A stretch of DNA of 64,000 bases from Candidatus Latescibacterota bacterium. Lineage in GTDB: Bacteria > Latescibacterota > UBA2968. The stretch is taken from contig JAJEHL010000049.1 in NCBI GenBank assembly GCA_022823725.1, positions 1-64,000 on the forward strand, given 5' to 3'. The first letter of the stretch is position 1; each line of letters opens with the position of its first letter. A program made the position numbers and the translations under genes. Under the pieces are notes generated by a model. That model worked only from the letters and a program-made list of their open reading frames with translations, made no database searches and was not told the origin of the DNA. This document shows, piece after piece, positions 1-56,446 of the stretch.

Positions 1-135
1 GAGTATATTGAAGGGTGGTATAATCCTCACCGCAGACACTCTGCACTGAAGTATCAATCGCCCATCACCTATGAAAAACTGATGGCAAAAGGTGATTGGG
101 TTGAAAGTGCCACACTATCCACTAAAGCGGGGTAA
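1..135 (+). pseudogene. 3' end of IS3-family transposase (OrfB), cut by window edge
   Basis: The first 44 codons of frame 1 are open and end in TAA at 133-135. The peptide contains the C-terminal signature of IS3-family integrase-core transposases (W-Y-N-x-x-R-x-H-S-A-L, followed by a short S-P-x-x-Y stretch). The start lies outside the window, so I cannot tell whether the copy is complete. The right end of the element should fall soon after 135, but no terminal repeat can be fixed without the other end. The fragment lies tail-to-tail with the effector gene ending at 212. Confidence 0.8.
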
Positions 136-211: not shown

Positions 212-1201
212 TCAAGCACTTTTAGTACCGTTAATCTCAAATTTGCGCTCAACGGAGACCATTGGAAATGTCTCATCCCGAATTTGATTCCACAATTCCA
301 GATATATTTTATGGTCAACAATCTGAAGGACATCTGGTGCATCAGTCGCTATTTTTGCACTATCCGTACCATATCCCACAATTACGCCGCAATGGTTAGA
401 CAGCACATAGCGGTTGTGAAAGGGGTGTGCGCCTCTTTCTATTTTTCCATCTTGATCTGTTTGCCATAAAAGAACCCTTACAGATTTCCCGATTGGTATT
501 AAGTTCGCGTAGTGCCTGTTAAGTGCATTTTCAACGTAATCTAAATCAGGCATATTATTTTCGGCTGGGCAGAAATGGATTGTCAGTGATGGAAAGGGAT
601 CACAATAGGAGGCTAAATCCCGAATAATCAGCGTGTAATTTTGGGTAAATGAACTGTTGCTGTCCACGTTAAAATATCGATCTAAAAAGTGAATATTCGA
701 AGCGACTCGAAGCATTGGTAAAATGGCATTTACAAATTCTCCAGGGCTGCGCGTGATTGAAACGCCACTGGGCTTATTCCACGCTTCCACGGTTCTATTG
801 AGTTCATCGGGATGGTACTTTAGCTCCGCGTCGTCAGCCCCCGCGTAATCAGGGCTAACGACAGCAGAAAAAGGCTCTCGTTGATGCTCCTGATCTATTT
901 CGGCTGTCCAAGAAAATTGTGAAAAATCGTCATAATACCAATCAGTCCAAATATTTCCTGGTCGATCTACCAGTTGACCTCGTACCATATCCAGACAGCT
1001 TTTCAAACTGCGTACTTTTATAGGGGGGAGATTAAGTGCTTGAACGTGTTGATCAAGAATCGCGTTTGCATTTTCATACCACTGACCAGATGGCAAATCT
1101 GCAATTACACGCCCCTGATATGGTTGACAGTGCTCCGTGCAATATCGAAACCAATCCAAATTTTCACATATTTTGGGATCAATAGCAAAAATACTCAGCA
1201 T
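212..1201 (-). CDS. Putative effector of AAA/DUF3696-like cassette, copy A (HxRY-motif protein)
   Basis: A 329-residue protein, second gene of the copy A operon. I do not recognise a named family. The C-terminal half carries an H-N-R-Y motif near residue 262, followed by a hydrophobic strand and a G-T-D-S turn, recalling the HxK/HxR strands of phospholipase-D-like nucleases. The copy B homologue shares the layout: H-D-R-Y near residue 255, and a central strand with L-D-R-Y here where copy B has I-D-P-Y. The N-terminal 160 residues are divergent. The ATG at 1201 was chosen over a GTG at 1213 because it lies two bases after the ATPase stop and matches the copy B start. The ATPase-plus-small-partner arrangement suggests the partner is the effector. 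That role is inference, and a nuclease or phosphodiesterase activity is only a possibility. Confidence 0.6.
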   Translation of the reverse strand: MLSIFAIDPKICENLDWFRYCTEHCQPYQGRVIADLPSGQWYENANAILDQHVQALNLPPIKVRSLKSCLDMVRGQLVDRPGNIWTDWYYDDFSQFSWTAEIDQEHQREPFSAVVSPDYAGADDAELKYHPDELNRTVEAWNKPSGVSITRSPGEFVNAILPMLRVASNIHFLDRYFNVDSNSSFTQNYTLIIRDLASYCDPFPSLTIHFCPAENNMPDLDYVENALNRHYANLIPIGKSVRVLLWQTDQDGKIERGAHPFHNRYVLSNHCGVIVGYGTDSAKIATDAPDVLQIVDHKIYLELWNQIRDETFPMVSVERKFEINGTKSA

Positions 1202-1203
1202 AA

Positions 1204-2559
1204 TTAATACCACTCCGAATCACGTTCTTCGAAAAAGCCTTCTGGCCATGGTGCATCAAAATCACCCTTATCTGTTACAGTGAGTGGCGTGAATTTAACG
1301 CCTGCTGGCGTTGGTCGAACATAGACCACAGAAAGATCATTGGGGGTTAATTCATGATATGTCTTTTCTGAATCATTGGTCTGGTATCTGCTACGACGAG
1401 TCGTTTCACGCACACGCCGCAGCAATCGCAACAGCAAGTGCTCAGAATGTGTTTCAATGAGCATAGTGCGATTGCTATTTTTTATACCATCAATGAATAA
1501 GTCGCCCAAAGCCACTTGAACGGCAGGGTGAACGTGAAGTTCTGGTTGTTCAACCGCGAAAACCTGAGACGTGTCATCTAACGCACCCACCACAACTGGA
1601 ATAACCTGAGAAATACCAACACCAACATCTGAGAGACCAATATCTATGTTATTATCTTCATCATGGAGGCGAAACTGCTCGTCGGATTTTGCCTGATTGA
1701 TGCTGTATCCAAGTTTCAAAACATCTTGTATATAATGGTTTGTTTTTGTGACCAATGCGGGGTCTCGTGCGAGTGCATCCCAGGCTCCAAATCCCCTTTC
1801 CCATCGCGATTCATCAGACGTTTGATGTGTCTGATAATCGTCATGGGGCACTTCTCGAAATGGTCCCAAATGTCGAATAGCATCCAGCTTTTTAGACTCT
1901 TGCAGACTACGCAACGATTTACCTATTGCCTTACCGATTGCCGCTCCCGCTATGCCGCCGATAAGCCCCCCTATAGGTAGGCCGAGAGCTGTGCCGAGAA
2001 CTACGACAGAAACCAGGCTAGTATCCAGGCCGGCTGCATCAAGCCTTTTAGGAGTCAATACCCTGCCATTCGGGCCAACTACCGGATCGTCGGGTATTTC
2101 CCCTGAAACGATGAAACACATTTCTTTGCCATTTATGACGCATCCCAATAAGACTGACTCAACATGGATATCTTCTTTCCAACTCGTTACCACTTCATTC
2201 CATAGAAGATAAATTTGATTTTGCTTATCTATGACATTGGGTGCATAGGTGATGCGGATTCGAATTTTCCGATCCAACTCATGGCGATGTACTAGGGAAG
2301 GAAAATCTCCCAGATCAATATCATGACCACCAGCCATTTCTATAGTTCTATTCAATTCGTTATTAAAAATTGCGTAGTAATAGCGTAGTGCCTGCAACAC
2401 CGTTGATTTGCCCGAGCTGTTTTTGCCAAATAACAAGGTGATGGGGCGAATGGGAATGGTTACTGCATCGCCAATGCCCTTAAAGTTTTCAATAGTGACA
2501 GATGTAATACGGCCTTGCTGGGATAATACCTCAATGATTTCAGTATCGGAAATGTTCAT
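1204..2559 (-). CDS. AAA (OLD/SMC-like) ATPase with DUF3696-like C-terminus, copy A
   Basis: A 451-residue ATPase of the AAA15/SMC-like kind. Visible motifs are Walker A G-K-N-S-S-G-K-S-T at 45-53, a Q-loop-like F-P-S-L-V segment, Walker B with E-Q-P-E-L-H-V-H-P near 337-345, and an E-T-H-S-E-H switch near 370. The C-terminus ends in a P-E-G-F-F-E-E segment typical of DUF3696 ATPases. A longer frame reaches 2619, but the extra 20 codons align with the non-coding leader of copy B, and the ATG at 2559 follows a GAGAG. Residues 181-215 form a Gly/Ala-rich hydrophobic glycine-zipper stretch that copy B lacks, so this protein may touch or insert into membrane. It ends two bases before the effector start. 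Confidence 0.8.
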   Translation of the reverse strand: MNISDTEIIEVLSQQGRITSVTIENFKGIGDAVTIPIRPITLLFGKNSSGKSTVLQALRYYYAIFNNELNRTIEMAGGHDIDLGDFPSLVHRHELDRKIRIRITYAPNVIDKQNQIYLLWNEVVTSWKEDIHVESVLLGCVINGKEMCFIVSGEIPDDPVVGPNGRVLTPKRLDAAGLDTSLVSVVVLGTALGLPIGGLIGGIAGAAIGKAIGKSLRSLQESKKLDAIRHLGPFREVPHDDYQTHQTSDESRWERGFGAWDALARDPALVTKTNHYIQDVLKLGYSINQAKSDEQFRLHDEDNNIDIGLSDVGVGISQVIPVVVGALDDTSQVFAVEQPELHVHPAVQVALGDLFIDGIKNSNRTMLIETHSEHLLLRLLRRVRETTRRSRYQTNDSEKTYHELTPNDLSVVYVRPTPAGVKFTPLTVTDKGDFDAPWPEGFFEERDSEWY

Positions 2560-2713
2560 GTTTTCTCTCACGAGTTGATAAAAGTATTCAAGTTTGTCTG
2601 ATACGCTTGAGGTTGACAAATTTTTGGAATATCCAACCCGCTACGCTCTGAAATGAGTCAACATATCACTCAATTCTTCAAACAACACGCCAAGTTGTCA
2701 AGGAATTTTTTCA

Positions 2714-2739
2714 GGAGACGGGGGAAGGCCCCCGTCTCC
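2714..2739 (-). terminator. Strong hairpin between small membrane peptide gene and ATPase A
   Basis: Two perfect 11-base arms (GGAGACGGGGG / CCCCCGTCTCC) flank a 4-base loop. It lies just after the small peptide stop at 2751 and before the ATPase leader. There is no U-tract after the stem on the minus strand, so partial termination, an attenuator or an mRNA-stability hairpin fits better than a full stop. It may set the ratio of small peptide to ATPase. Confidence 0.5.
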
Positions 2740-2750
2740 GATACTACATC

Positions 2751-2876
2751 TTAGTCGTCATCACTGAATATAATCGCCGCAATTACAAAGCCAGCGAGAA
2801 GTGGCGTGCCGACTAATACGAGTGCGGGGAGGCCAATTGCTGTGCCTCCGTACGCAATACCAACACTGGGGCCCAT
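2751..2876 (-). CDS. 41-residue single-span hydrophobic membrane peptide
   Basis: A small gene between the copy A sigma54 promoter and ATPase A. An AAGGAG sits 7 bases before the ATG at 2876. The 41 residues begin with about nine Gly/Ala/Ser-rich residues. They continue as one long hydrophobic helix rich in Gly, Ala, Leu, Val and Ile, and close with an acidic tail ending in three Asp. This looks like a small membrane protein or type I-toxin-like peptide. Its G-T-A-I-G-L-P piece resembles G-T-A-L-G-L-P in the glycine-zipper insert of ATPase A. The segment holding this gene is absent from the otherwise homologous upstream region of copy B. Function unknown; expression would depend on the same promoter. 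Confidence 0.6.
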   Translation of the reverse strand: MGPSVGIAYGGTAIGLPALVLVGTPLLAGFVIAAIIFSDDD

Positions 2877-3104
2877 GACAGATCTCCTTCTGATTGGAGG
2901 TTTCATACGCTACGCGCCTGTACTGTTCTCCAAAACCTTCAGGCCGCTGCCGTATAAGGACGATTCATGTTCGCTACCGCCTCCTTCTGAATTGTGTCCA
3001 TAAGGACAGACAAATTTTTGTTGATAACTTGACGTTTCTATCTGTTGGCACTGCCCCTTGATCCCACCTCCGAACATCCCCTTCGCTGTCACACCCATTA
3101 CTTA

Positions 3105-3120
3105 AGCATGTTCCGTGCCA
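3105..3120 (-). promoter_or_regulatory. Sigma54 (-24/-12) promoter of copy A
   Basis: On the minus strand the sequence is TGGCACGGAACATGCT. It matches the sigma54 consensus TGGCACG-N4-TTGCW at all but one base, with exact GG-to-GC spacing. The predicted start of transcription is near 3094. A near-identical element stands before copy B. The matching CARF/sigma54 activator gene lies about 4.6 kb upstream on the same strand. Confidence 0.85.
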
Positions 3121-3131
3121 ATTCGATCTGA

Positions 3132-3200
3132 AATTTGATTTTTCCTAAAAATTTTTCTCTTTTTTCTTATTTTTGCCAATTTTTACGCCATGAACACGAT
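3132..3200 (-). pseudogene. Remnant of the 3' end of a sigma54-activator gene
   Basis: Just upstream of the copy A promoter the minus strand encodes H-G-V-x-I-x-K-N-K-K-K-E-K-N-F followed by a stop. This closely matches the last residues of the intact activator at 7732-9258 (H-G-V-A-I-N-K-K-R-K-K-K-N-F). The frame breaks further upstream, and nothing else of the gene is recognisable. The spacing from stop codon to promoter matches copy B, which indicates that activator, promoter and operon were once duplicated together. Confidence 0.55.
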
Positions 3201-3359
3201 AAAAGCGGTGTTTGGACTTCCGCTAATCAAGCGGGAATGGTGATAGGGAGTAAAATTTATTGTGTAATCATAAAATTTTTTATGTTCTTTGTTGATTTGA
3301 CACTCTTGGGAACCGCTATTTCTCTCGTTCCACATCCTGAATTTTATACACAAACAAAA

Positions 3360-3387
3360 ACGGTGAGCATCTCTCGACACTCACCGT
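3360..3387 (-). terminator. Rho-independent terminator after the copy B effector
   Basis: An 8-base stem (ACGGTGAG / CTCACCGT) is followed on the minus strand by GTTTTTG. It lies about 77 bases after the effector stop at 3464 and separates the copy B operon from the copy A promoter. The stretch from 3121 to 3463 otherwise holds only the activator remnant. Confidence 0.7.
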
Positions 3388-3918
3388 AGTCTTGCAAAGC
3401 TGGTACGGTAGTGAATTCTACTTGTTCCGGGCACGTAAAGCCGGTTTCGTGATAAATCCCAATTTACGGTATTGTAAAATTAAACTGGTATTTAGGGTGT
3501 CTTTTACCTTGAATATTAGCATCAAAATCACGTTCTACATCTTCTCGGTCTGTTCTCCCAATTCGCGACCATATTGTTTGGAGTGGGCCTGTTGCAGTGT
3601 CAAATCCATTAGACATCTGAATCCCCACCAAATCACTAATCAGATAGCGGTCATGGAAGTCATCCCATACAAAGACTTTTACTTTTAAGTTTGACTGCAA
3701 AAGAGCAGGTCCAAATTTATTCCGAAAAGTGTTTTCCATATTTTTCTGATCCCATAAGGGAGCATTTTTTCCAGAGCCGCGAAGACTTTTACGGTGTATC
3801 TCAATGAGTGGCTGGGGTGATTGTGTTGGTCTATTACCTGCTGCTTCAAGTAATTGTATAAAATCAGCATAGTTACGTTGTTCTGGGTCAATATAGGGGT
3901 CGATAAACATAATAGATT

Positions 3919-3927
3919 TCGCATGTC
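3919..3927. repeat. 9-bp target site duplication, left copy
   Basis: TCGCATGTC lies immediately outside the left terminal repeat of the IS256-family element. The identical 9 bases stand at 5361-5369. Nine bases is a usual duplication length for this family. Confidence 0.9.
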
Positions 3928-5360
3928 GGTCAAGTCCTATATTTAGTTGAAATAATGGAGGCTGTTGGATTCAATCAGCAGCAATCGCGTCTTGCCAGTC
4001 CGTATCGAGCTTCAAGTTCTTCATAAGTGCGCGTCTGAGCCTGGGTAGGCTTTTATAGCCTTTGACCCTCCGCAAGCGGGGTTCAATGTCCAAGAGTGCG
4101 GTTGCCAACCAGCGACGGCGTTGATTAGAGTTTGTCCATCGCTTCACATTCCGGGTGAGTTGTGCCACCATTGAGTTAAGCGACTCAATGCAGTTCGTCG
4201 TACGAAAGGACTGCTTCAAGTCTGGCATCAGTCCGAGGCGATGCAAGCTGAGGGTTTCTTCAAGACCTTCTTCAAGGCTGTTTAGCGCGTCTTCGTTGAT
4301 CAAGGCCAATTCGGCTTTGAGGGATAAGAGCGCAGTTTTAGCTTCTTTGTAGGTAGGCAGGTCGTAGGCATGTTGGAGCAGCTTTTTGATCTCATCTTGT
4401 TTATTTTTTGGCAGATAGGACATGACATTCTCCCTTTTGTGCCATTGGCAACGCTGGATGACCACATAACCGTCGAGTGCCTTTGTAAGGGCAGCATATA
4501 GCCCTTTTGAGCCGTCAATGATACACAGCAGACCCTTGTCATAGCTCAGGTCACGTTCTATGAGAGAGCCTATAAACTGCCGACAGACACGCTCGTTCTC
4601 AGTGGCAGCCTGGACAAAGCCTATGGGGATCTTCTCGCCTTCTATCGTCACGCCGAGGGCAATGATCATCTCTTGATCCGCGAAGGTCTTGCCATCTATA
4701 AAGAGGGCAACGATATCGTATTGTGCCAACGAGCGTTCCCTAAACTGCTTCAGCTTTTGTGCCGATGCCTTGATAAAGCGTCTCGATACCGTGGATGAGG
4801 ACAGCCCAAAGGCTTTAGGGATCGCTTCGGCACAGGCCTGATAAGACCGGGTAGCAATACCTTTGATCATACGAAGGAGCAGGCCTTCATCCATACGTCT
4901 GGGAACCTGGAGATGATGATAGGTAGAAAGGGTGACTTCCTCATCCCTCTCCACATTACGTACCCTGGGCACGGAGATAGGCACTTTTTGATCGGCCAGA
5001 TACACAGACCCTTGTTGACTGCCCCACCGACGATTGGGGTTTTGAGTGTCTTTGCGGCTGTATCTGTCCCCGGATAGGCGGGTCACTTCGCGCTGCAATT
5101 CTTCTGCCACGGCGTCTAATCCTAATGGGATCAAGGCCTGGATCAATGCGATGCGGGTATCCATGGTGTCCAGTTCTTCTTCTATAGGTGTATCCGGCGT
5201 TTTATCGTCTTTGTGGATTGCCTTGACTTTGGGGGCTTTGTGCGATACTTTTTTCATCACGGGATCCTTTGGTTGAGGACACAGCGTTTTCAGGGTTGAA
5301 TCTGCTGTATCCAATTTACATTGGAGCCTCTACTATTTCAACTAAGATAGGCACAACCTC
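3928..5360 (-). mobile_element. IS256-family (Mutator-like) insertion sequence, 1433 bp
   Basis: The element is bounded by imperfect inverted repeats of about 36 bases. The left end begins GGTCAAGTCCTATATTTAG and the right end, read inward, begins GAGGTTGTGCCTATCTTAG. They share the inner block TTAGTTGAAATA and then GAGGCT. Nine-base direct repeats flank it. It carries a single transposase gene and sits inside the copy B effector. The intact transposase, perfect duplication and undamaged host frame on both sides point to a recent insertion. Confidence 0.9.
3971..5257 (-). CDS. IS256-family transposase
   Basis: A 428-residue DDE transposase. The catalytic residues can be placed in L-F-I-D-G-K (first Asp), C-I-I-D-G-S-K-G (second Asp) and T-T-N-C-I-E-S-L-N (Glu). 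The R-C-x-W-H-K-R-E-N motif typical of the family lies between the second Asp and the Glu. The ATG at 5257 is chosen because AAGGA stands upstream. A longer frame from a TTG at 5314 has no ribosome-binding site. No frameshift or stop is visible, so the enzyme is probably active. Confidence 0.92.
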   Translation of the reverse strand: MKKVSHKAPKVKAIHKDDKTPDTPIEEELDTMDTRIALIQALIPLGLDAVAEELQREVTRLSGDRYSRKDTQNPNRRWGSQQGSVYLADQKVPISVPRVRNVERDEEVTLSTYHHLQVPRRMDEGLLLRMIKGIATRSYQACAEAIPKAFGLSSSTVSRRFIKASAQKLKQFRERSLAQYDIVALFIDGKTFADQEMIIALGVTIEGEKIPIGFVQAATENERVCRQFIGSLIERDLSYDKGLLCIIDGSKGLYAALTKALDGYVVIQRCQWHKRENVMSYLPKNKQDEIKKLLQHAYDLPTYKEAKTALLSLKAELALINEDALNSLEEGLEETLSLHRLGLMPDLKQSFRTTNCIESLNSMVAQLTRNVKRWTNSNQRRRWLATALLDIEPRLRRVKGYKSLPRLRRALMKNLKLDTDWQDAIAAD

Positions 5361-5369
5361 TCGCATGTC
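5361..5369. repeat. 9-bp target site duplication, right copy
   Basis: TCGCATGTC immediately follows the right terminal repeat and is identical to 3919-3927. The effector reading frame is restored when one copy is removed together with the element. Confidence 0.9.
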
Positions 5370-5858
5370 TGAGAATCAGCTTAAGAGCATCTTTATAGTC
5401 CGTGATGGTGCGTTTTAGCCGAATTGAACTGTCTGTAGGAGACCACCATTCGACATTGGGAAACAAGAGTTTATTCACACTTGAAACCCGCGATTTTTTG
5501 CGATAGGTCCTTTCAATAGCATCACTTACTATAATGCCATTCAAAGGTGTGGTGTCATGCGAAGCCAACGCCTCTTTGCACCATTCACGATCGGTCTGAG
5601 GTGTATGACTTAATTCTGGATTACTTGGTACCAAACGCCCATTTATGTTTAGATTTTTTAAAAAATTTCTTACGAGTCTGTCCCAAGCATTTCCTGACAA
5701 GAACTGTTGCCATTCACCATTGCGAAGATCTCGAACCAGCCCCTCAGTTAAAAAAGTCTGCTGTAATTGTCTAATATGTGTTTCCCACAAGTCCCGCGAA
5801 TTATAGCAAGCCAAATTAAACACATCAGGTGTTACAGCATACTCAGAAAATAAAGCCA

Positions 5859-7514
5859 TTAAGCAAATACCTCTTCTATATCTTCCTCAAAGAAACCGCC
5901 CGGCCAGGCTTTGACCAAATCTCCACGTTCATTCACAGGCATTTCTCGTATGATTGTTTGCGAATCATGCCATTCAACGAATAGCACGACAATATCATCA
6001 GGGGTTACAGGAAACCGATTTTCTTCAATCCTATCTTCGAAAGTCTCACGCATCCGCCTCATAATCCTCAGTAGCAAGTGCTCCGAATGTGTTTCAATGA
6101 GCATGGTGCGATTGCTGTTTTTTATTCCGTCAATAAATACATCGCCCAAAGCCACTTGAAGGGCAGGGTGAATATGGAGCTCTGGTTGTTCAATTGCAAA
6201 AACTCCAGGGCTCTGACTGTCGTCTAACGCACCCACCAAAACTGGAATGACCTGAGAGATGCCAAACCCTACATCTAAGGGGTGAAGGTATATCTTATGG
6301 GTCTCATCATAAAGTTGAATCCTCTGTTCGAGGTCTTCAGATAGTCTGATGCTATATCCAAGTTTCAAAACATTTTTCATATAGTGGTTTGTTTTTTCGA
6401 CTAATTGAGGGTTTTGTGCAAGCGCATCCCAGGCCTCTAATCCCATTGCCCATCTCGATACAGCGGAATTAGACATTGAGAGCGGTGAGTTATGATGGCG
6501 AGGGAGCACATCTCGCACTGGCCCTAAATGTCGTATGTCAGGCAATTCTTCGATTACAATGCCATGCACTTCTTTGATTACATCCTCCACCAATCTTTCG
6601 AGCACAAGCTTCTCTAAACGGAGCCTTAAATTTATCTTATCTAAACCCTCAATAGTGTCGCGAAACCAAGAGAGGTATTCTGTCAGCAATTCGCTTTCAC
6701 TCAGGCCGAGCTTGATTGCCTGGGTGATAGGGTGTGAATATATTTTTGGATCACTAGGCCGTCTTACATTTATTTCATCGGGTTTGTTTGCCGGGGTGAT
6801 ATAAATCCATTCTGCGCCGTTTAAAGCATACTTGTATGAATCGAGATAAACAACCTGCTGTTTTTCGTCCCAACCTGTTACTATTTCTATCCCCGCGGAC
6901 TGTAGATCCACCATATCCTTCGGTATTATTGCAAGACTCAAAATACGATTCAAAAATTTCGCTTGTTTGGATTTTATATCAAAATCGAGGCGAATTCGAA
7001 TCTTCCGATCAAACTCATGGCGATGCACCAGGGAAGGAAAACCGCCCAAATCAGTAAAGCGGCCTGGATAGATTTCTCCATGTTCCCAGGCTTCTGCTTC
7101 TGCTTGGAATTTCTCCTCATCTTTTAATTCTGACAAATCAGCATCTTCAATTAGTTTTTGTATAGATTTTAGAACTTCGCTGGGGCGAGAGCCAAGGTTA
7201 GATAGATCAGCATTTGATATTTTTTCTAATTTATGTATTGGTATGGAATTCAGAACTTCGCGATATTTGAGACCGTCGGAATGGCTGCATACAATGTGGA
7301 GTGCCTTCAATTGTTCATATACGCCATCGTGCGATGCTTCTTCCAACTTTTGATTCAAGTCACCGCATATTTCGCGCAGATAGCGTAGTGCCTGCAACAC
7401 TGTTGATTTACCTGAGCTGTTCTTGCCAAACAATAAGGTGAGGGGGCGAATGGGAATGGTCACGGCGTCGCCAATGCCCTTGAAATTTTCGATGGTGATA
7501 GATGTAATAGCCAT
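5859..7514 (-). CDS. AAA (OLD/SMC-like) ATPase with DUF3696-like C-terminus, copy B
   Basis: A 551-residue paralogue of the copy A ATPase. Walker A is at 30-38 and identical to copy A. Walker B has E-Q-P-E-L-H-I-H-P near 442-450, the E-T-H-S-E-H switch lies near 476, and the DUF3696-like tail ends P-G-G-F-F-E-E. The first 38 residues and the C-terminal third are very close to copy A at both DNA and protein level. The middle, probably coiled-coil and helical, is longer and has no glycine zipper. The stop overlaps the effector start (TAATG), so the two products are translationally coupled. The 5' leader from the sigma54 promoter is about 166 bases and contains a small TTCAGG/CCTGAA dyad. The ATPase presumably senses or holds back its partner, which is inference. 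Confidence 0.85.
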   Translation of the reverse strand: MAITSITIENFKGIGDAVTIPIRPLTLLFGKNSSGKSTVLQALRYLREICGDLNQKLEEASHDGVYEQLKALHIVCSHSDGLKYREVLNSIPIHKLEKISNADLSNLGSRPSEVLKSIQKLIEDADLSELKDEEKFQAEAEAWEHGEIYPGRFTDLGGFPSLVHRHEFDRKIRIRLDFDIKSKQAKFLNRILSLAIIPKDMVDLQSAGIEIVTGWDEKQQVVYLDSYKYALNGAEWIYITPANKPDEINVRRPSDPKIYSHPITQAIKLGLSESELLTEYLSWFRDTIEGLDKINLRLRLEKLVLERLVEDVIKEVHGIVIEELPDIRHLGPVRDVLPRHHNSPLSMSNSAVSRWAMGLEAWDALAQNPQLVEKTNHYMKNVLKLGYSIRLSEDLEQRIQLYDETHKIYLHPLDVGFGISQVIPVLVGALDDSQSPGVFAIEQPELHIHPALQVALGDVFIDGIKNSNRTMLIETHSEHLLLRIMRRMRETFEDRIEENRFPVTPDDIVVLFVEWHDSQTIIREMPVNERGDLVKAWPGGFFEEDIEEVFA

Positions 7515-7690
7515 AATTTCTCACAAGTTGAAAAAACGTTCAGGTCTGCCTGAAACGCTTGAAGTGACAAATTTTTGGAATATCCCATTTTGCATAGATC
7601 AGGATACTAATTTTTTAGCTAATATAGCAGCTTTGCCAAGAAATTCTTTCAGGTGCCGGGAGTCCGTATCGCTGTCACGCCCATTGTTAT

Positions 7691-7706
7691 AGCATATTTC
7701 GTGCCA
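7691..7706 (-). promoter_or_regulatory. Sigma54 (-24/-12) promoter of copy B
   Basis: The minus strand reads TGGCACGAAATATGCT, matching TGGCACG-N4-TTGCW at all but one base with correct spacing. It starts only about 26 bases past the stop of the activator gene. Predicted transcription start is near 7680. The adjacent activator is the obvious candidate to drive it. Confidence 0.88.
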
Positions 7707-7731
7707 ATACACGCTAAAATTTGATATTTTT

Positions 7732-9258
7732 TTAAAAATTTTTCTTTTTTCTTTTTTTATTTATTGCTACGCCGTGCTTTTTTGCCCAGTTGGTAAAGGT
7801 CTGGGGGCTGGGCAATCCCACGAGTTCTGCGGCTTCTTTTTTTGTTTTTGATTCTTGCAAAGCGCGATTCAGGTAGTGTTTTGCAACTTCATCAATGAGA
7901 GCGGGCAAGCTAAACTCTGCGTCAAGAGGGCGATTCAAGATACCTTCATCGTGTTTCCCAAACGCGGGTAAGAGGGCTTCTTCAATGTCTTGTCGCGTGA
8001 GGGTCTCTCTGTCTGTCCACACCATTGCGCGTCTAAGCGTATTTTGCAACTCGCGTATATTGCCGGGCCAATGGTGATTGAGGATAATATTTTTTGCGCC
8101 AACGGAAATTTTTTTATGTTTGTATCCAGGCTGTGTTTCATTCTCCCGGTTGATCAGTTCGAGAGAATGGTTAATCAATAAACTCATATCTCCCTCTCGT
8201 TCGCGCAGTGGGGGCAATTTGAGATAGGCTACTGCAATCCGATAGAACAGGTCTTCGCGGAACCGTCCTTCACCAACTTCATCAATGAGATTTCGGTTTG
8301 TCGCCGCAACAATGCGGACATCCACTTTTCTGGGTTTGGATTCACCGAGTCGCACGACCTCACCTTCTTGTAAGACGCGCAATAGTCTCACCTGTATATC
8401 TTTGGATAGTTCGCCAATTTCGTCTAAAAAGATTGTGCCTTTATTTGCCTGTTCAAAGTGGCCTTCGCGATCAGCATGGGCATTTGAGAATGCGCCTTTT
8501 TTGTGTCCAAACAGTTCAGATTCCGCAAGGTTAGGATGAATCGCACCGCAGTTTACAGCGATAAACGGCTTTCCTTTTCGCGGGCTGTGTTGGTGAATGG
8601 CGCGTGCAAAGAGTTCTTTTCCCGTACCTGATTCTCCTTCGAATAAGACGGGGATATTTCGCACGGCAGCACGCTGAGCTTTTTCGACCACGCGAGCTAT
8701 GGCCGGGCTCCTGTATATTATATCTCCAAAGTTCGCTGATTCTGTAGGTTTTTCTTCGCTCAATGAGCGGAGTTCTGCATCGGGCTTTTGCAGGAGGGTT
8801 GGCAAAAATTCTGCAGAAATATCAAAGGGGACGGAGGCGGTTTGAACGCCGTGTGCTATTGAGGACTCGATCAATTCAGCGGGAAAGCGCGTTTTCGCCA
8901 GAATGATCCATACCGCGGCCATTGCTGGCGTGCCGGGGCTGAGGTGAAAGGTCAGTTCTATTTGATTGCCATATTGGTCCAATGCTTTTTGGCAGACGCT
9001 TGCAGCAGCCTCGTAAATTTCTCCAAAGTGGGTGGGGCTTGAAAGTTGCCTATTAAATAGTTGGTGTGGCGTCGGAGTTCTTTCTTGTATCCAGTTGATG
9101 TAAGGCTTTACGCGAGCAGTTTCATAATCTGTGATGAAGAAGACTTCATCAAATTCGCGCTTGTCCAGTGCCTGGGCGATAGGTCCCACACCTACATCTT
9201 GACCTTCAGATGCTTGCAAGTCTGTGTTGCCGATCCAGCATGTTAAAATTCGTTTCAT
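7732..9258 (-). CDS. Sigma54-dependent activator with N-terminal CARF-like (RtcR-type) sensor domain
   Basis: A 508-residue bacterial enhancer-binding protein. Residues 1-150 form a Rossmann-like sensor with an S-P-G-T-P-A-M motif at 107-113, the ligand-loop signature of CARF domains as found in RtcR and Csm6/Csx1. The AAA+ domain has Walker A G-E-S-G-T-G-K-E at 208-215 and Walker B F-L-D-E at 277-280. The sigma54-contacting loop reads GAFSNA at 255-260 in place of GAFTGA. A Fis-type helix-turn-helix ends the protein, with a Lys-rich tail. There is no rtcA or rtcB nearby; instead a sigma54 promoter follows at once. By analogy with RtcR, a cyclic oligonucleotide or an RNA end could be the inducer. 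That is inference. Confidence 0.85.
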   Translation of the reverse strand: MKRILTCWIGNTDLQASEGQDVGVGPIAQALDKREFDEVFFITDYETARVKPYINWIQERTPTPHQLFNRQLSSPTHFGEIYEAAASVCQKALDQYGNQIELTFHLSPGTPAMAAVWIILAKTRFPAELIESSIAHGVQTASVPFDISAEFLPTLLQKPDAELRSLSEEKPTESANFGDIIYRSPAIARVVEKAQRAAVRNIPVLFEGESGTGKELFARAIHQHSPRKGKPFIAVNCGAIHPNLAESELFGHKKGAFSNAHADREGHFEQANKGTIFLDEIGELSKDIQVRLLRVLQEGEVVRLGESKPRKVDVRIVAATNRNLIDEVGEGRFREDLFYRIAVAYLKLPPLREREGDMSLLINHSLELINRENETQPGYKHKKISVGAKNIILNHHWPGNIRELQNTLRRAMVWTDRETLTRQDIEEALLPAFGKHDEGILNRPLDAEFSLPALIDEVAKHYLNRALQESKTKKEAAELVGLPSPQTFTNWAKKHGVAINKKRKKKNF

Positions 9259-23782: not shown

Positions 23783-26700
23783 CTATTCCCCTTCTTTGTC
23801 AAAGGCGTTGGCAAAGATTAGAAAATCACTGAACTCGATAGTGCCATCCCCATCCAGATCGTATCGCACATCATACCCAGCATCGCCATGATTTAATCCG
23901 AACTGTGCCGCAAATAACAAAAAGTCGGGAAAGCCCACAGTCCCATCCCCATCAAAGTCGGGCGTAGGGGCTGTTGCGGAAGTTTGAGGTGTGATATACG
24001 GCGACATGTCCCATAGCAGAACCGTGCCATCCAAACTCCCACTGGCGAGTACACTGCCATCCCGATTAAACGCGACGCTCCAGACTTCCGATATATGCCC
24101 TTCGAGCGTTTGCTCGGGCTGTCCGGTGGCGACATTCCATAGACGAATGGCGCGGTCCAAACTCCCACTGGCGAGTATGCTGCCATCAGGGCTGAACGCA
24201 ATGCTTCGGATATCATCCGTATGCCCTTCCAGCGTCTGCATGGGCTGTCCGGTGGCGACATTCCATAGGCGAATGATGCCGTCTGCATCCGCACTGGCGA
24301 GTGTCTTCCCGTCTGAACTGAATGCAACGCTCCAGACTGCCGACGTATGCCCTTCGAATGCCTTTAAGGGCTGTTCACTGGTGGCATCCCACAGACGGAT
24401 GATGCCGTCCGTACTCCCACTGGCGAGTGTGCCATCTGGACTGAATGCGACACTCCAGACATCCGCCTCAAGCCCTGTGATCCTCTTTAGTAACTTTCCC
24501 GTGGTAGCATCTCGAAAATCAATAGAACCATGAACATGGTCTCCACCTTTTCCAGCTGCGAGCATACTACCATCCCTTGAGAACGCGACCGAAAAAATAA
24601 AAGGATCATATTTATAGGGGTCACTGCCGCCGCCAAGGCCAAAGCCGATGGTGATACCTCCAATTCTAATGCCAGTGAGACCACCGCTGGTGTCACCAAA
24701 GCCGATGCCACCAATGCCGATTCCGATGCCAGAGCCAGAGCCTCCATAGGATCTATCGGGCAGGCTCCTTTTGTACTGTCCCGTGACTCCATCCCACAGA
24801 TGGATTGTTTTGCCCGCCACACTGGCGAGCGTGCTGCCATCCGGATTGAACGCGACGCTGCGGACGGCAGATGCATGCCCTGGTAGCCTCTTCTCGTGCT
24901 GTGCTGTATCCCCATCCCACAGATCAATTGAACCAGCCCAATTGCCACTGACGAGGGTGCCATCCGGGCTGAACGCGACGCTTCGGCCCAACCATTTATG
25001 CCCTGTGATCGTGTTTAATGGTAGTCCTGTAGTGCCCCATAGAATGAGTTCTTCTCCACCTCCACTGGCGAATCGCCCATCCTGGCTGAACGCGACCTTT
25101 CGCACAGGCCACGCATGCCCTGTGAGCCTCTGCTTGTGTTGCCCTGTGTCCACATCCCATAAATCAATATTGCCTCCCCCAAAAAACTTTCCTCCGCCAC
25201 TGATCAGCGTGTTGCCATCTGGACTAAATGCGACGCTATAATAGTAGGTAGGCACTGGAGGAAAATCGGACTTTTCTAAACGTTGCTCTGTGCCTGTGTC
25301 CGGATCCCACAAATAGAGGTCGCCCTGGCGCATTCCCGGGAGAGTCTGACTGGCACCGGCGAGTGTGCTACCATCCGGGCTGAATGCGACACTCCAGATT
25401 CCACCTGCATTCACTCCCCACGGTTCGATCTTTTTCCTGTGCTGTCCTGTGGTGGCATCCCAAAGATGGATGATACCACTAAGAAAAGATTTTCCAGCAC
25501 TGGCGAGCGTGTTGCCATCCGGGCTGAACGCGATACCATTGACAATCTCCGCATTTCCAAATACATCCAGCGTAGTGAGCACTCTCAGGTGCTGTCCTGT
25601 GGTGGCGTCCCACAGATGGATTGTACCGCCCTGACTGCCACTGGCAAGCGTGCCATTCCGGCTGAACGCGACGCTGCGGACGGCAGACCGGTGCCCAGTG
25701 AGCGTATTCAAGTGCTGTCCTGTGGTGGCGTCCCACAGATGGATTGTACCGTCCCAACCGCCACCAGCGAGTGTGCTGCCATCCGGGTTGAACGCAACGC
25801 TGCGGACGGCAGACGTATGTCCCGTGAGGAGGTCGATCTCGGCACCGGTGAGTGCATTATAGACCCAAACACCGATGCCACTGCCGACTGCCAACCGCGT
25901 GCCATCATCTGAATACGCGATATCCAATATCCAACCTTTGCCCAGGCGTGCGGTTACGCCATTGGGTAAATGCCATGTCCAGTAATCACGATCTCTGCTG
26001 TGCGGCACGTCAGGCGTTCCAACAGTAAATATCACAAACTCCTGTCCAGCAGATACTCTGACAATAGTGTATGTTCCCGGGCCGGGACCAAGCGTGAGCG
26101 TCCGTTCTGCGCGACCATTGGCATCGGTTGTTACGTGCTCAACTGTGAGCAGACCACTGAGCTTTCCCTCACCGGCGGTGACCGTAAAGGTGACTTGAAC
26201 CCCCGGTAAAGGATTACCGTACTGATCTCGTACTTCAACGATCAGGGGATTGGGCAACGCAGTGCCGGGTGTGCCTTGCTGATCATTGCCGGATATTATC
26301 ACCAATCCCGCAGGCTGTGGCTGAACCGCCTCAGCTACGTCCCATAGTTTGATCGTCTCATCCTCTGACCCAGAAGCGACCGTCGTCCCATCGGGGGAGA
26401 ACGCTACCGAAAGAACCTCCTCTGTATGGCCTTCAAGTGTGGCGATATTTGTGCCCGTCGCCACGTCCCACAGCTTGACCTTTCCATCCTCTGACCCGGA
26501 AACGATGGTTGCACCATCGGGTGAAAATCCCACAGATGTGACGTAATCCTTATGCCCTTCAAAGGTAGCGGTATTTGTGCGCGTTACCACGTCCCACAGC
26601 TTGACTGTCTTATCATTTGATCCAGAAGCGAGTTGTGTGCCATCGCGCGAGAACACTAATGAAGTGACATTTCCCGTATGCCCTTTAAGTGTGATCGCGT

Positions 26701-27259
26701 TTCCCGTCGCCACATTCCATAGCTTGATTGTATCATCAAAAAACTCTGACGCGGTAGTAGCGAGGGTCCCATCGCGTGAAAACGCCACTGATTCGACACC
26801 GCCATAAGGCGTCTCTTCAAGTATGGTGGTACTGGTACGCGTTGCCACATCCCACAGTTTGATCCCCTCCCAGGATGCGGAGGCCAGAGTTTGCCCATCG
26901 GGTGCAAACGCCACCGATTCGAAATATCTCCCCTCAAGAGTGGCAATATTTGTGCGCGTCGCTATGTCCCACAGCTTGATGCTATACAAAGACGCGGTGG
27001 CGAGGGTTGTACCATCAGGGGAAAATGCCACCGATTCGACACCATAAATGTTGTCTTCAAATGTGGTAATATTTGTGCGCGTCGCCATATCCCACAACAC
27101 AACCGTTCCATCCTCTGACCCAGAGGCAAGAATCGTTCCGTTGGGTGCAAACGCCACGGAAGTGACATCTCTTCTATGCCCTTCCAAGGCGGTCTGAGCG
27201 AGGCTGTTCTGTACGAACAAGATAGAGAGGATGAGGTTGAACAACAGGATCTTTTTCAT
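23783..27259 (-). CDS. Secreted WD40-repeat protein with Ig-like insert and dockerin-like EF-hand tail (first copy)
   Basis: A 1158-residue secreted protein. Signal peptide at 1-22. A first WD40 block of about seven repeats (S-V-A-F-S-P-D-G-T and L-A-S-G-S-x-D-x-T-I-K-L-W-D units) runs to about 320. A bacterial Ig-like domain (about 335-430, with V-E-V-R-D-Q-Y-G-N-P-L-P-G-V) follows, then a second larger WD40 block of about 14 repeats broken by a Gly/Ile-rich loop. The last 60 residues hold two Ca-binding D-x-D-G-D-G-T-x-x-F-x-D-F motifs resembling dockerins. The SD is AAGGAGG. Its paralogue at 34843-38178 has the same order. Probably an extracellular scaffold; no cohesin partner was seen. 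Confidence 0.88.
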   Translation of the reverse strand: MKKILLFNLILSILFVQNSLAQTALEGHRRDVTSVAFAPNGTILASGSEDGTVVLWDMATRTNITTFEDNIYGVESVAFSPDGTTLATASLYSIKLWDIATRTNIATLEGRYFESVAFAPDGQTLASASWEGIKLWDVATRTSTTILEETPYGGVESVAFSRDGTLATTASEFFDDTIKLWNVATGNAITLKGHTGNVTSLVFSRDGTQLASGSNDKTVKLWDVVTRTNTATFEGHKDYVTSVGFSPDGATIVSGSEDGKVKLWDVATGTNIATLEGHTEEVLSVAFSPDGTTVASGSEDETIKLWDVAEAVQPQPAGLVIISGNDQQGTPGTALPNPLIVEVRDQYGNPLPGVQVTFTVTAGEGKLSGLLTVEHVTTDANGRAERTLTLGPGPGTYTIVRVSAGQEFVIFTVGTPDVPHSRDRDYWTWHLPNGVTARLGKGWILDIAYSDDGTRLAVGSGIGVWVYNALTGAEIDLLTGHTSAVRSVAFNPDGSTLAGGGWDGTIHLWDATTGQHLNTLTGHRSAVRSVAFSRNGTLASGSQGGTIHLWDATTGQHLRVLTTLDVFGNAEIVNGIAFSPDGNTLASAGKSFLSGIIHLWDATTGQHRKKIEPWGVNAGGIWSVAFSPDGSTLAGASQTLPGMRQGDLYLWDPDTGTEQRLEKSDFPPVPTYYYSVAFSPDGNTLISGGGKFFGGGNIDLWDVDTGQHKQRLTGHAWPVRKVAFSQDGRFASGGGEELILWGTTGLPLNTITGHKWLGRSVAFSPDGTLVSGNWAGSIDLWDGDTAQHEKRLPGHASAVRSVAFNPDGSTLASVAGKTIHLWDGVTGQYKRSLPDRSYGGSGSGIGIGIGGIGFGDTSGGLTGIRIGGITIGFGLGGGSDPYKYDPFIFSVAFSRDGSMLAAGKGGDHVHGSIDFRDATTGKLLKRITGLEADVWSVAFSPDGTLASGSTDGIIRLWDATSEQPLKAFEGHTSAVWSVAFSSDGKTLASADADGIIRLWNVATGQPMQTLEGHTDDIRSIAFSPDGSILASGSLDRAIRLWNVATGQPEQTLEGHISEVWSVAFNRDGSVLASGSLDGTVLLWDMSPYITPQTSATAPTPDFDGDGTVGFPDFLLFAAQFGLNHGDAGYDVRYDLDGDGTIEFSDFLIFANAFDKEGE

Positions 27260-27291
27260 GTGAGCACCCTCCTTGCTCTGAAGGCTGAGTG

Positions 27292-30200
27292 TTATTGCTC
27301 CTCACGCATATTCACGCGCCTGGGCTTCAACTCGATCTGCTTGTACTCATCAATCTCGCCGATGGGTTCTGTCAGGAGGCAGTTAATTGGGATCAGGTGC
27401 TCAGATGCGATCGCCAATTTAGCAGCGGCAGGAGAGGGAAGGGTGTACGCATCAGCCTGGCTGACATCGACGATGTAGCCCAGATCGGCCAGAGACTGGA
27501 TGGTGATCGCGCTCAACGGTTGGCGCATTGCAGCACTGGGAGAAGCGAATCCCTCCATGAGTTCATTGGGACCGAATACAGACTGCCGCCAGTGACCGTC
27601 CCGTGTACCCACTCCGCCTTTCTCATTCTCCACAGGCACCTTTCCATCCGCGTAGTCTGTTCCACCAGCGTCATTGAATGCCCCAATCGCACTTGCTCCC
27701 GCGAAATGCGTATCGGCACCATCTACCTCTACGGGAATAATAAAAAATTGGAATTTAATTGACGGATTTTTTAACAAGCCGAGGGGTTTCCACGCAGTAC
27801 CGATTCCCAAACAATGACCCATCTCATGCAGATAGAGATCTTGCAGAGCTTCAAGCGTAAAATCGCCCAGATCGGATGTGTCGAATTTCATTTGTGCTAC
27901 AATCGGCAATTTTGATTGCTCGCGCGTTTCTCGAGGACCAGCACTCCCCAGAGTTTCACCCGGGCCATCAATATTAGTGAGGCGTGCGTAGATTCTCAGG
28001 TCATCTACAAGACCGAAGACCTTAGCACCGTCTATTGTCCCTCCTTCATCTGCACTGACAAAAACATCGGGGATGTCGCTCGTGATAATGTTCTCCCAAC
28101 GCGTAACTGCGGCATTGAAGGCTGCCTGGTGAGCTGCAGATGGCTCGCTGCCGACCCAAATGACTTCGATATTGAAGGCGTTGGGATCGGGCGGATCGGA
28201 AAACTGCCACTGCTGGGGTGAATCGTAGTTTTGTTCGCTACCACATTTGGCGCGTAAAGTGCCTGTGGTTGTTGAAGAGAAGGTCATTTCGATTGTACAG
28301 GTACCACCCAAATGCCCCCCATCATAGTTTTGCGTAAGTATGCCAGTATTCGAGCCGGTATTTGAAAATGTATAGCTTCCCGGATATGCATTGTTTTCCT
28401 CAAAGCGACCAGCAGACAAGAATTCGATATAATAGGTCTCTACTGACAGGACTTTGTCGCTAACAAATGTATTGAATGCATTCTGATCTACCGGGGCAAA
28501 GCCGGGCGCGGGACGACTGGTCGTGCCATTACCCGATGGCGACCAGCCGCTCGTGCCTTCGTCATTGGTCGCCCGCACCTGTACCTCGTAAGAGGTCTCA
28601 GACATCAAGCCCGTGATCGTCGTGCTCAGACCTGGCCCAATATGGGACCAATCGGTGAAGTTTCCACCTGTCGCTCTGTACTGCACATCGTAGTCGCTGA
28701 TCGCAGGACCGGGGTTCGTCGGTGCTGTCCAGCGCAGGCTCAGGCTATTCGATGAGGCTGTGACTGTGGGTGCAGCAGGTCTGCCCGGGGGTTCGTTCTC
28801 ATCGGTGAGGGTGATCTCCACTGCAATGGTCGCACTGCCGCCTTTACTGTCCTGTGCCCGCACGGTTACCGAATAGGTATCCTTCGTCTCATAGTCATAC
28901 GTCTGACCTGATTGGGTACTGAGTTGCCCGCTGCCTGAGACTATGGTAAATGCAGAGGCATCCCTGCCTGTGAGGCTGTAGGTGATCTGGTCGTTGTCGC
29001 CATCTGTCGCACTGACCGGGTTTCCGATGTCCTGCCCTGCGCCTGTGTTCTCGGCTATGCTGCGCGTTGTGTTCGCGCCCTCGCTGAATACTGGAGATTG
29101 ATTGGATATGGTTGTGCCGGTAACCGATGGGGACCAGTTGCTCATTCCCTGGGCATTGGTCGCACGCACCTGTATTTCGTAATTGGTGTTCGCGGTTAAG
29201 CCCGTGATTGTTGTCGTCGTGCCAGTTCCAGTATGGGGCCAGTCGGTGAAGTTGCCGCCTGCTTCTCTGTATTGCACATCGTAGTCACTGATCGCAGGAC
29301 CGGGGTTCGTCGGTGCTGTCCAGCGCACGCTCAGGCTGTTCAATGTTGAGGCTGTGACTACAGGTGCGTCTGGTCTATCTGGCGGTTCATTTTCATCGAT
29401 GAGGGTGATGGCCACTGTGATGGTCGCACTGCCGCCTTTGCTGTCCTGTGCCCGCACGGTTACTGAATACCTGTTCTTTGTCTCATAGTCATACGTTACA
29501 CCCGATCTGGTTCTGAGTTGACCACTGCCTGAGACTATGGTAAATGCAGATGCATCCCTGCCTCCGAGGCTGTAGGTGATCTGGTCGCCATCGCCATCTG
29601 TTGCGCTGACCGGGTTCCCGATGTTCTGCCCTGCGCCTGTGTTCTCGGCTATGCTGCGCGTCGTGCTTGTTCCCTCGCTGAATACTGGAGGCTGATTGGG
29701 GGCGGGTGGAGGAGGGGCGCTTCTCACGGTCACGATGACAGCACTGGAGCAGTTGTTACCTGTGTCGGATTCGCCAGTGACAGCATCGACACAGGCTCCG
29801 TAGTAATATCTGCCAGCACTTGACGGGGCGGACAAGTAATCCAACTCATCACTGGTTTCAGAAGGATCGAGGGAGCTGACATAGTCCGTATCTATTTCTG
29901 TATCACTCTGGTCAATCGTCTGGTCGGTTGACAGATAATAGCGCAATGTAGTAGAGGAAGCTCGCCCGCCACCCTGATTGCGAACAGTTGCATTCAATGT
30001 GAAGGATGCACCTGGTCCTGGACTACTATTGCTGACCGAAGGCGATTCGACGATTAAATCAGAACCAATAACAGTGACGGCGACAGTGCTGGAGCAGTTG
30101 TTTCCGGTATCGCTCTCCCCGCTGACGCTTTCGACACAGGCTCCGTAGTAATGTGTGCCCTCACTCGATGGTGCGTCCAAACGAACAGACTCATCACTGG

Positions 30201-34779: not shown

Positions 34780-34842
34780 GATTAACCGTGTGGATGGTTT
34801 TGCCACTCAGGGCTAACATTAGGTCCGCAATCAGAGCAGTAG

Positions 34843-38178: not shown

Positions 38179-38281
38179 GGGGCTGGAGATACATCGAGAG
38201 AGGATAGCTTGATCGGTTATAGACGGAGCCAGAGAAAGTTCTGGTCTGCGGGCGTTGATGAGAGCGAAAAACGATGGTCGT

Positions 38282-38704
38282 TTAATCAACCTCGTGAGCG
38301 GTCAGAAATATCGATTTTGCCAGAGATGTGAAGAAATTTTGATATACTATTGGGTCCTTAACAGCCTTTTTTTTGTATTGCACGTTTGCACGTACCAACA
38401 ATTGGGTTTCTCCTCTCGGTCGAACTGTTACCGTTATTCGGTATTGATGTTTGTCGAGTTTTGTGGCACTAATCATTCCAAGCGTTGCATCTGCTTTATC
38501 CAGGACGTAGTCGAAATCTTGAAGTGTGGTTATTATCGTTCTAAGCATCTGATTCTTTTCTGTGGTGTCGAATGCACGGGTTTGTATGCTTCGCAACTGG
38601 ACCTGGCTTTCATCTATTTTTAGCAAATGATTTTTTGATGTTCCACATCCGAACAACCCAATTAAGATGACAATTGCGGTCGTCAATATTCTGGAGAGTT
38701 TCAT
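38282..38704 (-). CDS. Small lipoprotein, related to its upstream neighbour
   Basis: A 140-residue lipoprotein with signal peptide and lipobox ending G-L-F-G-C near residue 20. The core has a T-L-Q-D-F-D-Y-V-L-D-K-A-D-A-T-L-G segment and an R-I-T-V-T-V-R-P strand. The upstream gene shows the same pattern (V-L-Q-D-L-G-F-N-L-D-E-S-E-T-K-L-G and S-V-V-I-R-P), and both end with Y-Q-x-F-F-x-x-L-x-K-S-x-F-L. The two are therefore paralogues in one operon, joined by an ATGA overlap. Function unknown; probably periplasmic face of a membrane. Confidence 0.75.
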   Translation of the reverse strand: MKLSRILTTAIVILIGLFGCGTSKNHLLKIDESQVQLRSIQTRAFDTTEKNQMLRTIITTLQDFDYVLDKADATLGMISATKLDKHQYRITVTVRPRGETQLLVRANVQYKKKAVKDPIVYQNFFTSLAKSIFLTAHEVD

Positions 38705-54409: not shown

Positions 54410-54417
54410 TATTCACA

Positions 54418-55359: not shown

Positions 55360-55426
55360 TTTTGTACTCTCCTTCTGAATTGTGAAGATGAATAATGAAT
55401 CCTTGGCGGTCGTTCTCTATACTTCG

Positions 55427-56386: not shown

Positions 56387-56446
56387 TTTAAGATTCCTTA
56401 TAGAGACAACCAAGAGGGACCGCAACTATAAGCACTTAACTCACCA

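Follow-up and report, generated by a model that had tools for sequence, protein, structure and literature searches.

The question raised by this locus is what a CARF-type sigma54 activator switches on when pairs of ATPase and effector genes follow it. The locus spans positions 212 to 9,258 of contig JAJEHL010000049.1 of a Candidatus Latescibacterota bacterium; the window, here and below, is the whole 64,000-nucleotide stretch of that contig that was analysed, and the genome that carries it (G000) comprises 5.34 Mb and is 98% complete. All parts of the locus, namely the activator, two sigma54-type sites, two ATPase genes and two effector genes, lie on the minus strand. We propose, with a probability of roughly 0.6, that they form a CARF–sigma54-inducible antiviral module of ATPases paired with phospholipase D (PLD)-like effectors. 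Judged by sequence comparison, the module is real, conserved and linked to CARF domains; its function we infer.

The activator (7732..9258; 508 aa) consists of a CARF domain (about residues 1-150), an AAA+ sigma54-interaction domain and a C-terminal helix-turn-helix. It matches the PADLOC model RtcR_PspF2--CARF_AAA_HTH with an E-value (E) of 1.1e-196 (aa 2-497; model positions 1-480 of 481) and the Pfam family Sigma54_activat with E 8.5e-69, which bears out the sequence-only reading of this gene as a CARF-like sigma54 activator. The same reading had proposed modelling the CARF domain, and the model (predicted local distance difference test, pLDDT, 79) has the CARF fold: its top match in the PDB was Csm6 of Enterococcus italicus, in a structure that includes a cyclic hexa-adenylate analogue (Z 14.7 over 147 residues, 3.1 A), and the top rows listed in the structure search were CARF or ring-nuclease proteins. 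The ratio of non-synonymous to synonymous substitution (dN/dS) of the activator was 0.15-0.24 in four genomes of the genus.

A sigma54-type -24/-12 site (site 1, TGGCACGAAATATGC, 7692..7706) follows the activator, as had been read, and starts 26 nt past its stop, but it ends in ATGC and not in the canonical TTGC. The same ending is found in site 2 (TGGCACGGAACATGC, 3106..3120), which was located by motif search and confirms that the second unit has a site of its own on the same strand. Besides these two, the window holds no match to TGGCACG-N4-WTGC (0.13 matches expected), and none of 100 shuffles of the window contained two; genome-wide, the looser pattern TGGCACG-N5-TGC gave 44 sites, against 8 for a reversed control pattern. 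The lack of an rpoN gene had been named as contrary to sigma54 control, and an rpoN gene is present in the genome (E 1.8e-59). Site 1 is kept in the aligned promoter regions of five genomes of the genus. About 90 bp around site 1 are repeated at site 2 (80% identity in a stretch of 92 columns), and therefore the promoter was probably duplicated along with the second cassette.

The association of site and activator extends beyond the genus. A site with at most two mismatches in 11 positions lies between -25 and +195 nt of the activator stop in all 16 activator loci examined, although this interval was chosen with some loci already in view and the 16 include several close relatives; the chance of such a site per locus, estimated from random intervals of the same locus, was 0.005-0.057, with the weakest cases on plasmids L087 and L088. 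The genes that follow differ: they are ATPase–effector pairs in some loci, and on the five plasmids on which homologous activators were found, all five activators head either type I restriction genes (three plasmids) or vWA–PP2C–kinase–AAA genes (two plasmids), the latter being CoCoNuT-like by analogy. Because the site trails the activators while the downstream defence genes vary, we infer that activator and trailing promoter together act as a plug-in switch for defence genes. An activator of the same type in L082 (7229-15977; G049), whose stop coincides in position with a perfect sigma54 site, heads a glycine-rich protein that by eye appears membrane-like and a fused type I methylase/specificity protein. 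Short open reading frames (ORFs) for hydrophobic peptides were also seen past sigma54 sites, in an inspection made without a control: they encode 23-41 aa, have Shine-Dalgarno-like sequences and lie between the site and the ATPase gene or the contig end. The one in the window (2751..2876; 41 aa) lies between site 2 and ATPase 2, and others are found in L043 (15145-15240), L045 (5809-5883), L083 (9629-9703) and L084 (8755-8826), those of L045 and L083 looking alike although the genera differ. They are candidates for small membrane peptides controlled by the same switch.

Both ATPases, ATPase 1 (5859..7514; 551 aa, AAA_15/AAA_21) and ATPase 2 (1204..2619; 471 aa, TTG start), match Pfam AAA_15 (E 6e-23 and 3e-24, respectively). 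They had been called AAA/DUF3696-like, and the AAA part of that description stands, but DUF3696 stays under its cut-off in both (17.3 and 18.7 bits against 22; E 0.0056 for ATPase 1). Among the PADLOC models, PDC-M55A (E 2e-49 for ATPase 1) outscores NsnB (E 2e-41 and 1e-39 for the two ATPases), and AriA matches with E 4e-24 and 7e-25. The tail of each ATPase, defined as the part past ETHSEH, where DUF3696 lies, is of the HDRY type in ATPase 1 and of the HNRY type in ATPase 2, in keeping with the motif of the effector encoded next to it. Over 22 ATPase–effector pairs (231 comparisons; the broken first pair of the window and L075, with a partial ATPase, left out, and partial proteins used for the G037a effector and the L047 ATPase), the identity of the tails followed that of the effectors (Spearman 0.74, 0 of 500 Mantel shuffles; 0.83 in the 45 comparisons within the genus). 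The corresponding values were 0.15 for the ATPase body (14 of 500 shuffles; -0.13 within the genus) and 0.14 for the core just before the tail (16 of 500; 0.04 within the genus). ATPase 2 also contains a glycine-zipper-like hydrophobic stretch at about aa 202-235 (window about 1915-2016; Pfam Gly-zipper_Omp E 0.01, under the cut-off), and the first ATPase of G038 holds a hydrophobic stretch too.

The effectors are of two types that are 16-23% identical in alignments. Effector 2 (212..1213; 333 aa) is unbroken and carries the motif HNRY, and effector 1 carries HDRY, so that the HxRY proteins previously noted beside the ATPases are present, but the effector gene nearest the activator is split by an IS256-family element (3928..5361; transposase 5314..3971, NCBIfam transpos_IS256 E 1.1e-63) into a 5' part (5338..5859) and a 3' part (3464..3910) that bears FHDRY. 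The insertion is accepted because of the transposase and the 8-bp target duplication CGCATGTC at its flanks (3920-3927 and 5362-5369), not because of end repeats, which matched at only 10 of 40 positions in an ungapped test. The 5' part is 62-63% identical to the first half of the unbroken genes of G032 and G036, and the 3' part shares 68-70% identity with its counterparts in G032, G036 and G037. Among the genomes of the genus, effector 2 has a dN/dS of 0.20-0.36, within the range of 0.15-0.42 found across the open genes of the locus, which indicates purifying selection.

An AlphaFold2 model of effector 2 (331 residues, beginning two residues into the 333-aa ORF; pLDDT 85, predicted template modelling score 0.84) shows a PLD-superfamily fold at about residues 147-326, with Z 8-11 to proteins of that superfamily. 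The highest Z, 11.2, was to a phospholipase D (7wu1); MITD1 scored 9.9, and the PLD nucleases SauUSI, Nuc and BfiI scored 9.7, 9.1 and 8.5. Foldseek gave weaker results, with three matches at E 0.001 and TrmB as the best (2.8e-4). No Toprim domain was matched in the effector by Pfam. The catalytic motif of PLD enzymes is HxK(x4)D; all 20 effectors of the family alignment have HxR where HxK is expected, and the Asp place is taken by N in 19 and by E in one, D being found there in the effector-1 piece of the window and in L046.

These substitutions bring forward the strongest of the alternatives, which we regard as tenable yet tentative: the effector would be no enzyme, its PLD-like domain would bind membranes as MITD1 does, and the pair would act on the envelope, perhaps together with the small hydrophobic peptides encoded past several of the sigma54 sites. 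Besides the exchange of HxK for HxR and the Z of MITD1, it is favoured by Pfam MIT_C (PF16565), which matches 3 of the 20 family members at E 0.1, two of them above the cut-off of 25 bits (L074, 25.6; L076, 31.0), with no match in the window effector; MITD1 itself aligns weakly to effectors at DPY and HDR (E 0.09 and 0.24). It has to contend with five residues (R153, D176, H264, R266 and G274) that are invariant in all 20 effectors down to about 20% identity, as would suit an active or ligand site, with the phospholipase D that is the top structural match, and with the PLD nucleases, which score like MITD1.

The module is conserved within the genus. A search of 64 genomes with effector 2 gave matches in seven; of the 11 genomes of the genus, five contain an effector-2 homologue and the same five contain a full-length activator, while six contain neither, and in all five carriers activator and effectors share one locus. 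Activator matches above 600 bits that cover the model from position 1 or 2 to 480 occur in at least 8 of the 64 genomes; the ninth among the matches listed, in G018, covers model positions 2-479 with 420 bits inside a frame of 906 aa. In the four other carriers of the genus, a single locus holds the activator, a sigma54 site and two or three pairs: G032 has three pairs, G036 two pairs and, like the window genome, two sigma54 sites, G037 two pairs with the first effector split, and G038 two pairs that are separated by other genes. In all six multi-pair loci, five of which belong to the one genus, the HDRY pair precedes the HNRY pairs. This order rules out simple duplication of a single cassette, and the two cassettes noted earlier are not copies of one unit, given also the low identity of the effector types. 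Small proteins that by eye resemble GIY-YIG proteins are encoded in L043 (14773-15084) and L045 (13896-14222), in one genome between site 2 and ATPase 2 and in the other past effector 2. In G042, the activator and an ATPase fragment lie at one contig end and the rest of an ATPase and an effector at the start of another; the two parts are probably one locus.

Homologous pairs in other lineages were obtained by scanning 84,980 species genomes with the effector alignment and one peptide pattern that excludes HARY types; the scan yielded 13 loci, four of them from the same genus. L072 (Vicinamibacteraceae) has the same order as the window, with an activator, a sigma54 site right after its stop, an HDRY pair and an HNRY pair, so that the predicted co-occurrence of activator, site and pair is found in the five genomes of the genus and outside it. 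In L078 (Desulfobacterales) and L079 (Gammaproteobacteria), the CARF activator is followed by type I restriction genes and then by one HDRY pair; an Azotobacter plasmid carries an activator, annotated type I genes and the pair. The cyanobacterial loci L074, L076 and L077 show a different arrangement, in which type I restriction genes (by eye) precede an ATPase that carries a CARF1/Csx1-type domain at its N-terminus (PADLOC CARF1 models, best E 1.5e-17, 7e-39 and 2.5e-38) and the effector. The pair of G021 is accompanied by a Dsr1-like SIR2 gene, another ATPase and type I genes. On a Deinococcus plasmid (L086, 3991-8750), a gene resembling those of prokaryotic Argonautes lies directly before the pair (PADLOC 8e-30; Pfam Piwi under the cut-off).

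With the five genomes of the genus counted as one lineage, 13 lineages carry the pair. In five, a CARF–sigma54 activator precedes the pair on its strand (six with G042), and in three the ATPase contains CARF, giving a CARF-linked pair in 8 of 13 lineages (9 with G042); a preponderance of pairs lacking such a link, named beforehand as the outcome that would speak against the idea, was not seen. The Azotobacter case was found via its activator and biases the count towards linkage; without it, the proportion is 7 of 12 (8 with G042). No activator was found in L075 and G021, where contig edges lie upstream, or in L080 and on the Deinococcus plasmid, where no edge intervenes; the CARF models are narrow, a broader one having missed the PADLOC-found CARFs of L074, L076 and L077, and absence in these four lineages refers to the activator class. 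Two plasmids carry the effector, one found by effector search and the other via its activator. As to spread by phage, no confirmed effector homologue was found in viral contigs (searched with one peptide pattern) or in phage records (searched together with plasmids using one HDRY-type query, which missed the Azotobacter effector).

The frequency of restriction genes in these neighbourhoods raises the alternative that the pair chiefly guards type I restriction, as PARIS and PrrC do (PrrC being an example of a type I restriction guard), with the ATPase body sensing anti-restriction proteins of phages and freeing the effector, and with CARF as an option. Type I restriction genes are found upstream of the pair in 7 of 13 lineages, the restriction (R), modification (M) and specificity (S) genes being recognised by Pfam in L078 (R, M and S), by Pfam (R) and by eye (M and S) in L079, by eye in L074, L076 and L077, by annotation in L090 (M and S), and by Pfam and PADLOC (S) or by eye (R and M) in G021; the AriA matches of the ATPases and a body that varies almost independently of the effector point the same way. 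We nevertheless consider this alternative less likely than our proposal: in the window and in L072 the activator directly precedes the pair and no type I genes were seen beside it in the ORF lists, which were read without a family search of all neighbours, and the cyanobacterial ATPases contain CARF domains of their own.

What the CARF domain might sense can be approached through the motif after strand 4. Among 14 aligned activators it reads SPGTPAM in 11 and SPGAPAM, SSGTPQM and ASGTPQM in the others; the three ATPase-fused CARFs of cyanobacteria have TGGTK, TGGTK and TGGSK. RtcR-type CARFs are described as mostly without a positive residue at this motif (Makarova et al., PMC4012209), RtcR as binding tRNA fragments with cyclic phosphate ends (PMC7790460), and its signal as unlike oligoadenylates (PMC9650030). 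Because of the difference between GTP and GTK/GSK, taken with these data on RtcR, we lean towards RNA ends as the signal of the activators and towards a cyclic oligoadenylate as that of the cyanobacterial fusions. Possible sources of cyclic nucleotides are unevenly spread over the 11 genomes of the genus: Csm1-type Cas10 occurs in four, Cmr2 in four at E 1e-3 and in none above the cut-off (none in the window genome), and the SMODS cyclase of the cyclic-oligonucleotide-based antiphage signalling system (CBASS) in five, one of them inside the window. The four carriers with an unbroken activator (G000, G032, G037 and G038) each hold Csm1 or SMODS, and neither Csm1-type Cas10 nor SMODS was found in the genome of G036, whose activator is broken; this co-occurrence shows little about the ligand source, since three of the six non-carriers also hold one or the other. 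The CBASS operon of the window (53768-56425, minus strand) encodes an E2-like protein with a SEC-C motif, a DncV/SMODS-type cyclase and a patatin phospholipase effector; it lies about 45 kb from the CARF activator and may be a nucleotide source.

The locus could also belong to a regulon for RNA damage or stress, as with RtcR, and not to phage defence, a possibility we consider improbable. It draws on the GTP motif, found where cyclic-oligoadenylate CARFs have GTK, and on the NCBIfam RtcR model, which the activator matches over aa 63-477 with 334 bits. That score is well under the 650-bit equivalog cut-off and no rtcB is linked, so the activator was rejected as the RtcR of an RNA repair operon; RtcB was found in none of the 11 genomes of the genus, and the plasmid-borne activators all head the restriction or vWA–PP2C–kinase–AAA genes described above. 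Least probable is that the locus is decaying and has no function left in the window genome, for although effector 1 holds an insertion, effector 1 of G037 is split and the activator of G036 contains a stop, the other genes are open with the dN/dS values given above, and pair 2 and both sites are unbroken.

The reading as an inducible antiviral module would work as follows. The CARF domain of the activator would bind a nucleotide or RNA-end signal made upon infection, whereupon the AAA+ domains would assemble and open the sigma54 promoter past the activator as well as its second copy, and two ATPase–effector pairs of different type would be produced. As the co-variation suggests, each ATPase would hold its own effector by the C-terminal tail, and the exchangeable ATPase body could serve as a second sensor or gate. 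Once triggered, the PLD-like effector would attack nucleic acid or membrane and halt the infected cell. As the first effector is broken in the window genome, only the second pair can act fully there.

Several points weigh against this proposal. The HxR motif and the N that mostly replaces the Asp of HKD make enzyme activity of the effector doubtful, and one of the two effectors is broken in the window genome. In G036, the activator gene (L055; G036:C381:9497-10981) contains an in-frame TAG stop. No Csm1-type Cas10 was found in the window genome, and with RtcB lacking as well, neither of the two best-known routes to a CARF ligand is evident here. No CARF activator was found near the pair in L080 or on the Deinococcus plasmid. 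Gene adjacency could explain part of the co-variation of tail and effector, and body and core also correlate slightly with the effector (14 and 16 of 500 shuffles).

Among the remaining features of the locus, a terminator-like hairpin with a T-run and a 12-pair stem lies past effector 1 (3360..3387, minus strand); such hairpins are not enriched there, the region having 8 and shuffles 9.6 on average. An apparent transposase remnant, judged by eye, adjoins the end of effector 2 (window 1-135, plus strand). Farther away, at 23783-38289 on the minus strand, three very long repeat-rich proteins are encoded (1158, 2504 and 1148 aa), two of them WD40-like and one with fibronectin/cadherin-like repeats by eye.

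The locus is of interest because the same pair is tied to CARF either by transcription or by fusion, and the two CARF classes involved (GTP as opposed to GTK/GSK after strand 4) offer a natural comparison of what each class senses. It could also help to establish whether infection is what RtcR-type CARF activators report, and the division of the ATPases into tail and body leads to a testable prediction on the choice of effector by OLD-type ATPases.

Among known systems, RtcR-like activators come closest in their control. CARF–sigma54 activators that head restriction and CoCoNuT genes have been proposed as regulators in two papers (PMC4012209, Makarova 2014; PMC11090510), so the earlier statement that no such arrangement had been described does not hold for the activator. 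The likeness covers activator architecture, its position as first gene, downstream targets on the same strand and the defensive nature of these targets; the published targets are restriction and CoCoNuT genes, whereas here they are ATPase–PLD-like pairs of two types with a second site. No paper on DUF3696 with CARF, or on DUF3696 with defense and ATPase, was found in the literature searched; control of defence genes by CARF and sigma54 is already known, and the ATPase–effector pair under such control was not found described there. A second comparison is with the Nsn genes (NsnA-NsnB-NsnC), which we take to be Menshen. In a review (PMC10952713), Menshen is given as a DUF262 gene with a predicted OLD nuclease. 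The window ATPases match NsnB, and NsnC is a distant relative of the effector family, with matches in 6 of its 20 members at E 0.1 (best 2e-9) and in three cyanobacterial relatives at 1e-3; unlike Menshen, the locus is under CARF–sigma54 control, its effector has no NsnC match at E 0.1 and G000 none at 1e-3. NsnA is absent from the window locus, its sole match in G000 lying on contig C7 (E 6.5e-4), and among 17 genomes or records searched it occurs near the pair only in G021, as a weak match (3e-5) about 5 kb away. By sequence, the pair is NsnBC-like at a distance and is not Menshen. PARIS (AriA-AriB) likewise combines an ABC/OLD-type ATPase, whose AriA models match the window ATPases, with a separate effector gene, but AriB is a Toprim nuclease, whereas the effector here is PLD-like in its model and CARF–sigma54 control is added. 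The CARF effectors known best are the ligand-switched enzymes of type III CRISPR systems. To those (Csm6, Can2 and Card1) the locus is akin in a CARF fold nearest to Csm6 and in the tie of CARF to an effector; it differs in the missing Csm1-type Cas10 of the window genome and in a CARF domain that appears to act via transcription or, in cyanobacteria, inside the ATPase. We give slightly less than an even chance to a distinct immune system, in which an ATPase–PLD-like chassis would be coupled to CARF in two independent ways (CARF–sigma54 transcription and a Csx1-type CARF–ATPase fusion), and in which a single switch would command two effector types, acting together and arranged in a fixed order, each held on its own ATPase by a type-specific tail.

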